In this document: positions 2,037-15,171 of the stretch, in pieces
How the letters are laid out: each line of letters opens with the position of its first letter
How positions within the stretch are numbered: the stretch's first letter is position 1
IMG/VR virus record: IMGVR_UViG_3300043673_000008
Location: 1-52,362 of that record
DNA length: 52,362 nt
Source of the DNA: a virus
Direction: 5' to 3' (one strand)
Notes under the pieces: model-generated
Database searches by the model: none
Seen by the model: the letters and a program-made list of their open reading frames with translations, nothing else
What the model was told of the DNA's origin: nothing
Position numbers and translations under genes: made by a program

Positions 2037-2775
2037 CACGCCCTGGGGACGGTCAGGACGGCGATTTGAGGGTTGAGCGGTATGGTAGCATGGGTAGGAA
2101 TTCCTGCCGTCCAGGGCTTCGGGCTAAGGGTGCAGGGGTTGGCAAATCCCTATAGGCGGTATTTTCAAGTCACATCCCTGACGCCGGAATGAACATGATG
2201 GTTCTAGTCGGAGTAACCCCTTGATAAAGGAAAAAGTTAGAATATTACAAGGCACAACAGAATAGAATGAATAGTGTGACCAATCATGGTGTTGAATGGT
2301 GTGCTGTACTGTACCTAGGGCAAGGATGTGGGGGTCTAAGGCGTACTCTTAGGGAAATGCCATTAGTTCCAGACCCCTGCAATGCCGTTCCCCACGCGTT
2401 AACCATAATTCAGTAAACACGAATTATTACCAATTAATACAGAATTGGTTAATCCATAGCTAACCCATTGACTGCCTCAATTAAGCCTTATTTCTCCCAA
2501 TCCTGTCAAAATTGTGTTCATCAATGGGTTAGCTATACCACATTAACCCTGATGTAGTTAACCCGATGCTATTGTCCATCGACCATGGTGTAGTTAACTG
2601 TAACATCATTAAAGATCGTTAACTAGTTCATGGTTAATATATGCTTGCGGGCCGGTGTATTTTAACTAATTCATGGTTACCGGTGCCGGGGACCCCTTAG
2701 GGGCTTCTCAGTTCCCGCATCCCCTTGACCATTAACCAGAATTGAGTTAAGCTATACCCCCACAGAGGTATGATC
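2037..2775. other. Long non-coding region before the terminase genes
   Basis: About 740 bp without a credible gene. Its first part can form hairpins: 2040-2052 pairs with 2107-2117 (GCCCTGG/CCAGGGC plus ACGG/CCGT), and CTAAG/CTTAG pairs at about 2336-2352. The second part (2399-2750) is AT-rich and holds seven TTAAC-N9-GTTAA dyads, listed separately. A position just upstream of terminase genes is typical for cos or pac sites and for late-gene control, but no cleavage site can be seen from sequence alone. Confidence 0.75.
2399..2750. promoter_or_regulatory. Array of seven 19-bp dyads TTAAC-N9-GTTAA
   Basis: Sites start at 2399, 2434, 2543, 2594, 2619, 2662 and 2732. Three (2543, 2619, 2732) are perfect in both arms; the other four have one mismatch in one arm. 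Most also share a TGG or CCA next to one arm in either orientation, for example TTCATGGTTAA. The last site ends 14 bp before the ribosome binding site of the next gene. The geometry fits a dimeric DNA-binding protein (repressor, activator or packaging/replication protein); which one is unknown. Confidence 0.8.
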
Positions 2776-3231
2776 ATGCGGAAACGCGAAACCCTTGACG
2801 AGTTCACCGATCGCGCGATCGCTGCAACCGACGCTGGCAAGTTCATTCCGCCGATCGTCTATCTGCCGAAGCGGCTTCGAGCGAACGGGGTGCGGCTGAC
2901 GGTGGACAACATCTGCGTCACCACCAATCCTCCGACAATCAAAGAGAACCACCTCCGTATCCTCGACGCTGATCCGCTCGGCTTCCTGATGGCGGTGATG
3001 CATGGCCAACCGATCCCCAGCTTTCATGTCACGACGGAAGGCTCAATTAGAGTGGAGTACCAAGTCCCTTGCTTCGACACGCGCGTCCAAACTGCGAAGT
3101 GGCTCGCGCACAAAGTAACGCTGCGGTCGAACGATCATAAAAGCGGCATACCTGTCGATGAAGGTGACGGCTGGAACGATCTAGTCGAGAAGCGCAACGC
3201 CAAGGAACGCGAGACCAATAACAACCCATAG
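2776..3231 (+). CDS. Hypothetical protein upstream of the large terminase; candidate small terminase subunit
   Basis: There are two in-frame ATGs, at 2770 and 2776. The AGAGG at 2764-2768 is only 1 nt from the first but 7 nt from the second, so 2776 is preferred (152 codons with the stop). The protein is soluble, slightly basic and carries no motif I can name. The only functional hint is position: small terminase subunits often lie immediately before the large subunit and are of about this size. No clear helix-turn-helix is visible, so this is an inference from context. Confidence 0.5.
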   Translation: MRKRETLDEFTDRAIAATDAGKFIPPIVYLPKRLRANGVRLTVDNICVTTNPPTIKENHLRILDADPLGFLMAVMHGQPIPSFHVTTEGSIRVEYQVPCFDTRVQTAKWLAHKVTLRSNDHKSGIPVDEGDGWNDLVEKRNAKERETNNNP

Positions 3232-3284: not shown

Positions 3285-4868
3285 TTGGCCTATAAAAAAC
3301 CGATCAAGCGCACCGAACGCGAATGGGCGGCCCTCAAGCATTGGCTCGAAAACCCGACCGACGCGATCAAGGACTGGTTCAAGGTCACGCCAGATGACTG
3401 GCAGGGGGACGTGCTTAACGGGCTGTTCAAGCCGACAAGCACGGTGATGGACCGCATCGCGATGAAGGCGGCGCATGGCCCCGGAAAAACGGCGATCGAC
3501 GCTTGGGCCGGGCTTATATTTCTGAACTGCTATGAGAATTGCCGCGTGGTCGCAACCGCGCCGACATTCGCGCAGCTTCACGACGTTCTCTTTCCTGAAT
3601 TCGCAAAGTGGTCGAACAAGCTTCCAGAAAGGATGCAGGATGAATGGGTTATATCTGGCGGGCACATTCGCCATAAGCTCGCCCCATACGATTGGTTCGC
3701 TGTGGCGCGGACAAGCAATCAGCCCGCCAATCTTCAAGGCTTTCACGGCAGCCATCTGCTCATTCTCGCCGACGAAGGCTCCGCGATCCCACCTCCCGTC
3801 TTCGAGGTCATCGAGGGGGCATTGTCGGAAGCGGGCGAAGATGGCAAGGTCGCGAAGCTGCTGGTAGGGGGCAACCCTAACTTCAACAGCGGCGAACTGC
3901 ACGACGCGTTCTATAAGAACCGTGATCTGTATGATCGAATTACGATCACGGGGGATAAGCCCCTGCTCACCAAGCTCGAAGTCGAACAGGGCGGATACCA
4001 CGAAGATCATGGGCGCGTGTACTATAGCCCTAGGGTGAAGAAGAAGTATTGCGACATCATCGCGAAGAAGTATGGCATCGACAGCGCGGTGTACGACGTG
4101 CGCGTGCGGGGCATCTTCCCGCGCATTAGCGACGACGCGATCTTCCCGTTGGAATGGGCGGAACGCGCCGCGCTCAAAACGCCGCCTCCATTCGATAACG
4201 TGGCCGATGGCTTCTCGGTGATCTGCGATCCCAGCCGGGGCGGGGCAGCCGAGACCGCGATCGGGGTCGCTCGCAAGGGATGTCTTGTCGAGATTGAAGG
4301 TCATAAGGGGATGACCAGCGCGCCCCAGGTCAGCAATCAAGTTCACGAAGTCGTGCTGCGCTATAAGGCGATGGGGCTGCACCTCAACGAGATTATTGTT
4401 GATCAGCCCGGTGTCGGCGGCGGTGTCATTGATAACCTCAGACGGGATTTCAACTATCCAGTCCGTGGTTATGACGGCGGCAAGCCGCTCGTAAAAGGCG
4501 TGGACCCGGATGAAGACTGCAAGATGTTCGCCAATCGGCGCGCACGGGATCATTGGGCGCTGAGGCGCAAGCTCGAACAGAACACGCTGCCGATCCCTTA
4601 CGACGAGGTAATGCTCGCGCAGATGGCGAGCATCAAGTACCACTACAACAAGACGGAGAAAATTCAGGTCGAGGGCAAGCAGGACATGAAGGACCGGCTT
4701 GGGCCGGAAGCCTCCCCTGATCGCAGCGACGTGCTGGTGATGGCGAGCGCACCCTATTACAGCGGCAGCGAAGTCACCTCAGTTAACATTACGGAGGAAG
4801 ACATCGTCAGCGGGGATGACCGGCCCACCACGGAATATCGCGAGGCTATGGACATGGGGCTGGTTTGA
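3285..4868 (+). CDS. terL: Terminase large subunit (DNA-packaging ATPase and nuclease)
   Basis: The start is a TTG, fixed by a strong GAAGGA site at 3271-3276 with an 8-nt spacer. The 527-aa length is normal for the family. Residues 62-69 form a Walker A loop (A-A-H-G-P-G-K-T) and 158-164 a Walker B strand ending in D-E (L-L-I-L-A-D-E). The C-terminal half has the RNase H-like nuclease pattern: V-I-C-D-P near residue 314, I-I-V-D-Q-P near 369 and R-S-D-V near 480, giving the expected acidic residues. It moves phage DNA into the prohead through the portal and cuts the concatemer. It is transcribed with the upstream candidate small subunit and is followed by a small gene and a terminator. Confidence 0.93.
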   Translation: MAYKKPIKRTEREWAALKHWLENPTDAIKDWFKVTPDDWQGDVLNGLFKPTSTVMDRIAMKAAHGPGKTAIDAWAGLIFLNCYENCRVVATAPTFAQLHDVLFPEFAKWSNKLPERMQDEWVISGGHIRHKLAPYDWFAVARTSNQPANLQGFHGSHLLILADEGSAIPPPVFEVIEGALSEAGEDGKVAKLLVGGNPNFNSGELHDAFYKNRDLYDRITITGDKPLLTKLEVEQGGYHEDHGRVYYSPRVKKKYCDIIAKKYGIDSAVYDVRVRGIFPRISDDAIFPLEWAERAALKTPPPFDNVADGFSVICDPSRGGAAETAIGVARKGCLVEIEGHKGMTSAPQVSNQVHEVVLRYKAMGLHLNEIIVDQPGVGGGVIDNLRRDFNYPVRGYDGGKPLVKGVDPDEDCKMFANRRARDHWALRRKLEQNTLPIPYDEVMLAQMASIKYHYNKTEKIQVEGKQDMKDRLGPEASPDRSDVLVMASAPYYSGSEVTSVNITEEDIVSGDDRPTTEYREAMDMGLV

Positions 4869-12139: not shown

Positions 12140-12184
12140 GATTGATCGCAACGGCCCCCGCTTCCCCCGCCGTGCATCGACAGC

Positions 12185-12220
12185 AACCCGTCCCTCGAAA
12201 GAGTGGACGGGTTGTCCGTT
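12185..12220 (+). terminator. Hairpin terminator or attenuator after the capsid gene
   Basis: AACCCGTCC (12185-12193) pairs with GGACGGGTT (12205-12213), a 9-bp perfect stem with an 11-nt loop; the T tract behind it is interrupted (GTCCGTTTT). It probably reduces transcription into the long glycosyltransferase gene. Confidence 0.7.
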
Positions 12221-12261
12221 TTCGTGGTATGGCGACCGCATCAGGTGGGGGAATTCCAACA

Positions 12262-15171
12262 ATGCAAATTACGTTCGCGTGCGGAGCTATGCCGTTCGGT
12301 CCTGAGACGCCTTCCAGAGCGAGCCTGGGGGGCTCCGAGACGGCAGCCTTGATGATGGCTAAGGCGGTAGCGGCGCGCGGCCACGAGGTCACCATGTTCT
12401 GCAACCTGCCGCCTGAGGGCAGGCCAGACTTCTTTCCCTCCGGCGAGAAGCACACCGATGGCGTCCGCTATGTGGACCTCAAGCATTACCAGAATTTCAC
12501 CACAATTCACGCCGTCGATTTGTTGATCGTCCTGCGCGACCCAAATCTGATCGCCATTCCCGCCCAGGCCAAGAAGAAGGTCTTGTGGGCGCACGACATC
12601 TTCACCAAGCGTGGCATGGGTCGGGCGCTGGATCAGATCGCCTTCACCTTCGACGAGATTTGGGCCGTCAGCGAGTGGCATAAATACCAGATCGCGGAAG
12701 CCACCGGCTATCCCGAGAACCGGATCGTTGCTCTGCGCAACGGCATCGTGAAGTACGCCGACATCATTGACATGCCGCGCGCCGAGAACCAGCTTGTCTA
12801 TGCGTCGCGCCCGGAGCGCGGCCTCGAAAACCTCGTGAAGCCGGGCGGCGTCATGGAGAACCTGCCTGAGTTCAATCTCGTGGTCGCCATGTATGAGCAT
12901 TTCCCCAAGGATATGGAGGAATTCTACCGCTATATCTTCGACTGCTGCCGCCGCCTGCCGAACGTCACCCTGCTCGGCGGCAAGCCCAACGCGGAACTTC
13001 GCCAAATTATCAAAGAAAGCGCGGGCTACATCTACCCGACGCAGTTCGAGGAAACTTCCTGTATCTTGGCGCGCGAGTGCCTTGAACAGGGAACGCCGTT
13101 CCTGACTACTAGCGTCGGCGCGTTGCCGGAAACGCTCGGCGACGAAGGCATCTATTTCGAGGATTATCTGTTTGCTATCGGGGTAAAAGAGCCCGAACGC
13201 GGCTCTACCGGCTGGTGCCAGTTGTTCGCCAGTTTTGTGCGCCATTCGTTGCGCCAGAAGGAAAAGATCGACGAAATCTGCGCGCAGGGCATGATGCGCG
13301 AAGACCTGTATTGGGATGGCGTCGCCGAAATGGCGGAGCCGCACTTCGCCGCGCCGTTCGGCACGCCGTTCTCTCGGCTGTGGTCTCTCATTCAGGACGG
13401 CGACGTGATCCCTGCACGGGCATTCTATTCCTCGATCGAACATGACACGCACCTCCTGGGCGGCATCGCCGAAGAACTCAAGCTCTACGACTTCATCAAC
13501 GGTGACATCGGGGCCTACTACGACAAGTTCTACCGCATCAAGGACGTGGAAACGACGGAGCTTCATTTCACCGATCAGGTCACCGGACCGCGCTGCGCTG
13601 CGATCGCCGAACAGATCGCCACCCTACCGCCCGGTAGCACCATCTTCGAGTATGGCTGCGGCCCAGGCCACGTCCTCGCGCCGATGGCGAAGCTGTTCCC
13701 GCAGCATCAGTTCATCGGCTATGACTTCTCTGAGGCTGCCGTGGGCGTTGTCAATGCTGGGGCCGAGGCAACCGACCTGACCAATCTCGTAGCGAGGGCT
13801 ACTCCGTTTGGCCCCTCTAATCCTGAGTTCAAGGGGTTCGACGCGGTGATCTGCTCCGAAGTGTTGGAGCATGTGGTAGAACCGTGGAAGCTTCTGCAAG
13901 AGGTCGAGGCGTTCGCTAAACCGGGCGGACTTATGATCATCACAACGCCGTTTGGCGCATGGGAGCCATTGAGCTACGAGAGCGACGGTGGCAAGCGCTG
14001 GCGCGAACGCTTCCACCTGTGGAGTATCGACCGCAATATGTTCAAGGCAATGTGCGACGGCGACAAGCCCGAGCAGAAAGCCATGATGATCGTCGCCCAT
14101 CCCGCGACGGAGTGGATGCGTCCGATCGGCAACTTCCTGTTCACCTATCGCGCCGACCATCGCCCGACCAAGTCCGTTGACCCATACGTAAAGGCGCTCG
14201 CCCATTGGACGCGTGAGACCTGCGCCGCCGTGGTGATCGCCTACAACAATGAGGACACGATCCTGCGCCTGATGAACAGCCTGGACCGCAAGGTTCAGTA
14301 TGTGCAGATCGCCATGGGACCTTCGACAGATGGCACCTATGATCTCCTGATGGGCTGGTTTCAGACCCATCCGTGGATGCGCTTCAACATCGTTGACGTG
14401 CCGAAGATCGAGCCGTGGAAGTTCGGCTTCGATGACGCCCGCAACGCCAGCACCAAGGACATTGCCGCCGACTGCGAATGGATGCTATGGATCGACACCG
14501 ATGAATACCTCTCGGGCGAAATTAGGAAGTATCTGCGTCCGTCGTCGATGGATGGCTACCTCGTCGCCCAACATCACTTCACTGTCGAGCCGCGCGGCAA
14601 TCCTCCCGAGATCGACCGCCCTGCCCGCCTGATCCGCAGCGATCGCGGCTATAAGGCATTCGGCCATATCCACGAGCATTTCGAGGTGCCCGAGGGTGGT
14701 CCAGGCCGCTGCATCCTCTTGAACGACGTGGACATCGGCCATGTCGGCTATGTCAACGAACAGACCCGGCAGGGGCGGTTCTTCCGCAACTTCCCATTCC
14801 TTGAATGGGAACACTCCACGAACCCGGATCGGAAGCTGCACAAATTCCTATGGTTCAGGGACATCATCCACAGGATGCGGTTTCAGCAGGACCCGAAGGC
14901 CCGCACTGCACTCGCCGAGGAAGCCGTTTCATACTATAATACGCACCAAATCGAAATGGGCGCTTTCGGGCCGGGACTGTTCATGTCCCTCAAGTATCTG
15001 TCAGAAGCCTATGCGGCTCTCAATCGGGGTACGCCAATCAAGGTTCAGGTCATGCTCGACGACCGGAACGCAGTGATCGAAGGTCGGTTCGAGAGCTATG
15101 AGCAGGTCGAGAAGGTCGTCGGCCAGCTTCTCGCAGACGAGTTCAAAACCCGCAACGACAGGTACTATTGA
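12262..15171 (+). CDS. Three-domain glycosyltransferase - methyltransferase - glycosyltransferase
   Basis: The frame is open from 12142, but a terminator hairpin lies in between and a GGTGGGGG site precedes ATG 12262, giving 969 aa. Residues 1-330 resemble a GT-B (GT4-like) glycosyltransferase, with L-G-G-S-E at about 21 and a C-terminal E-x7-E type stretch (E-E-T-S-C-I-L-A-R-E-C). Around 462, F-E-Y-G-C-G-P-G-H-V is motif I of a class I SAM-dependent methyltransferase. From about 654, A-V-V-I-A-Y-N-N-E-D starts a GT-A (GT2-like) glycosyltransferase with D-T-D at about 744 (W-I-D-T-D-E). The protein probably builds and methylates a glycan on a virion protein or alters host surface sugars. The target is unknown; the place between capsid and connector genes favours a virion target. 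All domain calls are from motifs. Confidence 0.85.
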   Translation: MQITFACGAMPFGPETPSRASLGGSETAALMMAKAVAARGHEVTMFCNLPPEGRPDFFPSGEKHTDGVRYVDLKHYQNFTTIHAVDLLIVLRDPNLIAIPAQAKKKVLWAHDIFTKRGMGRALDQIAFTFDEIWAVSEWHKYQIAEATGYPENRIVALRNGIVKYADIIDMPRAENQLVYASRPERGLENLVKPGGVMENLPEFNLVVAMYEHFPKDMEEFYRYIFDCCRRLPNVTLLGGKPNAELRQIIKESAGYIYPTQFEETSCILARECLEQGTPFLTTSVGALPETLGDEGIYFEDYLFAIGVKEPERGSTGWCQLFASFVRHSLRQKEKIDEICAQGMMREDLYWDGVAEMAEPHFAAPFGTPFSRLWSLIQDGDVIPARAFYSSIEHDTHLLGGIAEELKLYDFINGDIGAYYDKFYRIKDVETTELHFTDQVTGPRCAAIAEQIATLPPGSTIFEYGCGPGHVLAPMAKLFPQHQFIGYDFSEAAVGVVNAGAEATDLTNLVARATPFGPSNPEFKGFDAVICSEVLEHVVEPWKLLQEVEAFAKPGGLMIITTPFGAWEPLSYESDGGKRWRERFHLWSIDRNMFKAMCDGDKPEQKAMMIVAHPATEWMRPIGNFLFTYRADHRPTKSVDPYVKALAHWTRETCAAVVIAYNNEDTILRLMNSLDRKVQYVQIAMGPSTDGTYDLLMGWFQTHPWMRFNIVDVPKIEPWKFGFDDARNASTKDIAADCEWMLWIDTDEYLSGEIRKYLRPSSMDGYLVAQHHFTVEPRGNPPEIDRPARLIRSDRGYKAFGHIHEHFEVPEGGPGRCILLNDVDIGHVGYVNEQTRQGRFFRNFPFLEWEHSTNPDRKLHKFLWFRDIIHRMRFQQDPKARTALAEEAVSYYNTHQIEMGAFGPGLFMSLKYLSEAYAALNRGTPIKVQVMLDDRNAVIEGRFESYEQVEKVVGQLLADEFKTRNDRYY

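Follow-up and report, generated by a model that had tools for sequence, protein, structure and literature searches.

The window analysed here is the complete IMG/VR record IMGVR_UViG_3300043673_000008, 52,362 bp of DNA from a phage that is previously undescribed, with its main genes on the + strand. Ahead of its terminase genes, positions 2399-2750 hold an array of seven palindromic 19-bp dyads of the pattern TTAAC-N9-GTTAA. The array is read here, with a confidence that falls somewhat short of even, as a region of several operators for a regulator of an alphaproteobacterial host, of the kind acting at the promoter of pdhA, the pyruvate dehydrogenase gene. Its arms and spacing match the commonest dyad upstream of alphaproteobacterial pdhA, so that a metabolic regulator of the host may be read, or soaked up, by the phage.

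The dyad array

Pattern scanning recovered three exact dyads and four with one mismatch within 352 bp, all on the + strand, so that the number of sites, the number of perfect ones and the span reported in an earlier note on this DNA are borne out, also by comparison with shuffled sequence. The leftmost site, dyad 1 (2399-2417, TTAACCATAATTCAGTAAA, one mismatch), stands in a context, CGCGTTAACCAT, common to the relatives L004 and L063. It is followed by dyad 2 (2434-2452, TTAATACAGAATTGGTTAA, one mismatch), dyad 3 (2543-2561, TTAACCCTGATGTAGTTAA, exact), dyad 4 (2594-2612, TTAACTGTAACATCATTAA, one mismatch), which is overlapped by a weak eighth dyad (2579-2597, TCGACCATGGTGTAGTTAA, two mismatches), and dyad 5 (2619-2637, TTAACTAGTTCATGGTTAA, exact). 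Dyad 6 (2662-2680, TTAACTAATTCATGGTTAC, one mismatch) falls within a conserved bipartite element, GGCCGGTGWWWWTK-N29-CCCCTTA (2650-2699, + strand), at an offset identical to that in L004, and dyad 7 (2732-2750, TTAACCAGAATTGAGTTAA, exact) has the start codon of the probable small terminase gene (terS) 19 bp downstream. Between dyads 2 and 3 lies an imperfect inverted repeat (2456-2536), with 27-nucleotide arms at 2456-2482 and 2510-2536 that are 81% complementary. The sharing of inner bases described earlier is correct by reading, with TTCATGG in the sites at 2619 and 2662 and GGTTAA in the reverse complements of those at 2399, 2543 and 2732.

In the local AT-rich stretch, the seven sites with at most one mismatch compare with a mean of 0.034 in dinucleotide shuffles, none of 2,000 reaching seven, and the three exact dyads with a mean of 0.0015. 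Across the whole window, 20 sites with at most two mismatches were counted, against 7.4 ± 2.7 in shuffles. When the window was scanned with a matrix derived from the array, the eight array sites took the top ranks (scores 25.1 to 10.0) and outscored every other place, the best score elsewhere in the genome being 8.4; equal frequency elsewhere, which had been proposed as a refutation, was not found. The only exact dyads in the entire record are those at 2543, 2619 and 2732, and the high-scoring sites form one intergenic cluster, with none at other phage promoters. No open reading frame (ORF) of 60 amino acids or more is present on either strand between 2040 and 2751.

The same dyad at pdhA promoters

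The link to pdhA was unplanned and arose when bacterial genomes were scanned for the two-site pattern, which gave at least 120 loci. Among the loci listed, which are mostly unrelated and include many repeats, four are alphaproteobacterial (three Pseudovibrio species and one Ancylobacter) and carry, immediately ahead of pdhA, two dyads spaced 28-29 bp apart; in two of the four genomes this pair represents the sole exact dyads. Upstream regions of pdhA were then collected as a sample of one order (29 genomes) and a class-wide sample (70). Allowing up to one mismatch, the dyad is present in 10 of 29 regions in the order sample, against 0-1 in controls, and in 23 of 70 in the class-wide sample, against 0-3. 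Among exact dyads with 5-bp arms and spacers of 0-15, TTAAC-N9-GTTAA ranks first in the 70 regions (15 of them), and TTAAC arms at the other spacings occur in 0-1. A TTAACYGAAWTYCRGTTAA-like form, sometimes paired 28-29 bp apart, is the commonest 5-bp-arm dyad upstream of pdhA (loci L181, L195, L230 and L201; regions L279-L378). These counts point to a widespread alphaproteobacterial factor that would act at the pdhA promoter through a dyad of the phage type; in the literature searched for a pdhA regulator with this motif, no named factor was found.

Relatives and their versions of the region

Relatives were found by a search with terL, the gene of the large terminase subunit (TerL), by a blind two-site DNA scan of IMG/VR and by a profile search. 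L004 (terL 76% identical), returned by the terL search and the blind scan alike, carries six dyads ahead of terL and the probable terS. Six dyads are also present in L027/L063 (terL 56% identical), a further match of the blind scan, as is L042/L073 (48%), in which two dyads lie some 3 kb upstream. In a separate terminase lineage (L012, L035 and L055; terL about 30%), two dyads precede terL by about 170-240 bp, the first lying within the final part of the preceding gene, and the two adjoin a DnaA box (TTATCCACA). Four further relatives, L065, L066, L067 and L074 (terL about 50-60%), are without TTAAC-N9-GTTAA and carry 8-3-8 dyads of different letters, for example TTACACGT-N3-ACGTGTAA, in the same interval, about -250 to -50. 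Dyads of the CACGT-N3-ACGTG type replace the TTAAC dyads upstream of the bipartite element in L065 (544-705), L066 (30, 204), L067 and L074 (3636-3709). Conservation among related phages, which the earlier note had made a test of its case, is accordingly divided: the dyads are kept in the two closest relatives, and more distant ones show dyads of other sequence instead.

The relatives also place other host-type sites in this region. Exact boxes of GTTC-N7-GTTC, the alphaproteobacterial LexA motif (PMC8565304), occur near the array region once per locus, at +76 in L004, -305 in L065, -121 in L066 and -256 in L074 with respect to the element. CtrA-type sites, TTAA-N7-TTAA, are found in the array region of L066 (five exact, 1-255) and L067 (two exact, about -373 and -263 with respect to the element). 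L062 has a dyad of its own, the perfect 20-bp palindrome GTGAGTATCTAGATACTCAC, near two XRE-type helix-turn-helix (HTH) genes (348-731 and 631-1083) that lie between its cos-like element and terS, and in L065 a tRNA-like sequence (about 908-985) separates the cos-like element from the terminase genes. In the large GC-rich records L021, L043 and L050, TTAA spacings are mixed, with both N7 and N11. Several matches of the blind scan were set aside, namely L005, L013, L020, L030 and L052 (tandem repeats or apparent coding coincidences), L008 (repeat-rich coding sequence) and L019 (within a reading frame).

Proposed operators for a host regulator

If the array serves a host regulator, one protein family may bind both the phage dyads and the pdhA dyad; the phage site at 2399 matches eight of the nine inner bases of the host site TTAACCATTATTCAGTTAA. 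The array sits on a hinge free of ORFs, with the phage map's last genes on one side and the terminase/late operon on the other, and overlaps the candidate cos element; binding there would make the onset of late transcription or of packaging depend on the metabolic state of the host, much as has been proposed for CtrA. Alternatively, phage copies could be so numerous, each with its seven sites, that they titrate the regulator from one or two host sites and so act as a decoy. The binder had earlier been placed between an unannotated small phage protein and a host factor, and the second option gains real support from the alphaproteobacterial pdhA dyad. It is a tentative possibility that a virulent phage has wired its late or packaging switch to the host pyruvate dehydrogenase regulator, or built a decoy for it, with relatives swapping in operators for LexA, CtrA or a CACGT-N3-ACGTG factor at the same hinge.

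Several points weigh against a host regulator of this kind. The inner bases that follow TTAAC differ, the phage consensus being C-A-T and that of the host [CT]-[GT]-A, and the agreement of inner bases between phage and host is just slightly above shuffles (about 2-4%). The dyad itself led to pdhA, which leaves some room for coincidence: by a rough estimate there is a small but real probability that the phage dyad matches one of many conceivable host operators by chance. The CACGT-N3-ACGTG-type dyads of L065, L066, L067 and L074 have no exact copy at the 70 pdhA promoters. An alphaproteobacterial host is suggested only indirectly, by the LexA boxes, the CtrA-type sites and weak matches of two proteins to phages, among them those of Ochrobactrum, Pelagibacter and Sinorhizobium.

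Alternative readings of the array

The main rival, a doubtful one in our judgement, is that the dyads are packaging sites of cosB or pac type, at which terminase, through TerS or a partner, would bind and position TerL for cutting at GGCCGGTG-N35-CCCCTTA. It is compatible with a role as operators for a host regulator, since a host protein could assist at cos. The cutting site would be the 50-bp bipartite element, which can also be written GGCCGGTG-N35-CCCCTTA and at which the GC-rich GGGGACCCCTTAGGGG lies (2688-2703). This element, a candidate cos/packaging site, keeps one fixed spacing across the window and six relatives, and it follows or overlaps the dyad region; when its pattern was sought in 2.9 million viral contigs of IMG/VR, six contigs matched, all of them already-known relatives. 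The array surrounds the element, both dyad groups span about -250 to -50 of it, and offsets of -56/-57 and +12 are common to the window and L004. In L065 and L074 the element lies 0.8-1.5 kb upstream of terS, and the L062 contig begins at its equivalent, CCCTAGGGGACTT. The letters of the dyads differ between relatives under a constant 8-3-8 geometry, as expected of a phage-encoded binder. Agreement with the commonest pdhA dyad would, however, be surprising in a dedicated phage site.

The terminase itself bears on packaging in both directions. TerL (3285-4868, + strand) is clearly identified, and the ORF at 2770-3231 (+ strand), encoding 153 amino acids, is probably TerS by its position and weak fold similarity, so the placement of the array before the terminase genes was right. 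Homologues of the 153-amino-acid protein precede terL in most relatives examined; a search for relatives with this protein alone gave no matches. Its best ten PDB matches in Foldseek are all small terminases of an SPP1-like phage, although they are weak (E about 0.07-0.2) and its model has low confidence; no HTH is seen in the protein. Moreover, many TerS proteins bind DNA weakly in vitro and with little sequence specificity (PMC9611059), which counts against TerS as the reader of the dyads.

Less probable still, and unlikely overall, is an unrecognised phage-encoded regulator that binds the array and represses or activates the late operon. The divergence of dyad specificity among relatives would suit such a protein, as would the position of the two XRE-type genes of L062, exactly between element and terS and accompanied by their own dyad, and many small ORFs of the window match no family. 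Against it stand the confinement of high-scoring sites to one cluster and the character of the small conserved protein P0001, which is not HTH-like on reading; the proteins P0001-P0004, most of which are kept among relatives, were read for DNA-binding features and none was found. The earlier statement that no repressor gene is recognised in the window holds for the searches run, since neither HTH_3, the one HTH family searched genome-wide, nor phage integrase had a match in the record. A search of 84,980 species genomes gave no relative of terL, which is evidence against life as a prophage. Together with the missing integrase and HTH_3 matches, this led to the rejection of lysogeny (temperate immunity) operators, and the same negatives count in favour of a host regulator.

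That the sites are CtrA boxes, bound by the host cell-cycle regulator, is very unlikely. The CtrA half-site TTAACCAT (PMC3692519) is present in several arms, and clusters of CtrA sites are known from pili- and flagellotropic alphaproteobacterial phages, where they are linked to 'lytic deferment' (PMC9437464). The spacing nevertheless leads to rejection of canonical CtrA boxes: exact TTAA-N7-TTAA is absent from the window and occurs once in L063, whereas TTAA-N11-TTAA dominates, with 5, 5 and 6 occurrences in the window, L004 and L063, respectively, and inverted arms 15 bp apart are unlike the known CtrA geometry.

An AT-rich, ORF-free region with repeated sites and an inverted repeat would suit a replication origin with iterons. 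This reading is equally improbable, because there is no near-consensus DnaA box near the array, the dyads are irregularly spaced (starts about 25 to 109 bp apart) rather than regular direct repeats, and the cumulative GC skew is near its maximum there, with the minimum near 31 kb. The roles proposed earlier for this place, namely cos/pac, late-gene operators or an origin, therefore fare differently: the element beside the array makes cos/pac plausible, and the origin is disfavoured by the missing DnaA box and the skew.

Other features of the record

A search of Rfam matched no family. Among the structural genes, positions 12142-15171 encode a 1,009-amino-acid protein with glycosyltransferase and methyltransferase domains, 43-57% conserved in four relatives. 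Both contig ends (1-150 and 52150-52362) lie inside the same tandem repeat of GAATTTGACCGGGGC units, apparently a pentapeptide-repeat gene, and have sequence in common; because the ends share this repeat, the record is probably circularly closed, with the repeat collapsed.

Significance and comparison with known systems

Reading of a host regulator by phages of Alphaproteobacteria is known for one case, CtrA, whose sites form arrays in intergenic control regions. If a pdhA regulator binds the dyads described here, phage reading of host regulators would extend to central metabolism, the terminase-proximal hinge would be a general mounting place for host-state sensors in this phage group, and late-gene timing or host carbon flux would depend on a metabolic transcription factor. 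Two by-products of the analysis are a widespread alphaproteobacterial pdhA promoter dyad, for which no assigned factor was found in the literature searched, and a candidate packaging site whose cut position is open to test.

The cos region of lambda consists of cosN, the R sites of cosB and sites for host IHF, a host protein that assists at cos. As in lambda, repeated sites adjoin a putative cleavage element ahead of terS-terL, and a host protein may take part. The present sites differ in being palindromic 19-bp dyads that lie mostly to the left of the element, and no HTH is seen in the probable TerS.

In the phage arrays of CtrA sites (PMC9437464), sites are concentrated in one intergenic region, likewise the case here, where the top matrix hits fall within 2399-2750, and the relatives L066 and L067 likewise carry CtrA-type sites. 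The pattern there is TTAA-N7-TTAA, whereas here it is TTAAC-N9-GTTAA (TTAA-N11-TTAA).

The pdhA promoter dyad of Alphaproteobacteria has arms and spacing identical to those of the phage array, and a few sites are nearly identical throughout. The pdhA promoters carry one or two sites with the inner consensus YGA, and the phage array carries seven with the inner consensus CAT.
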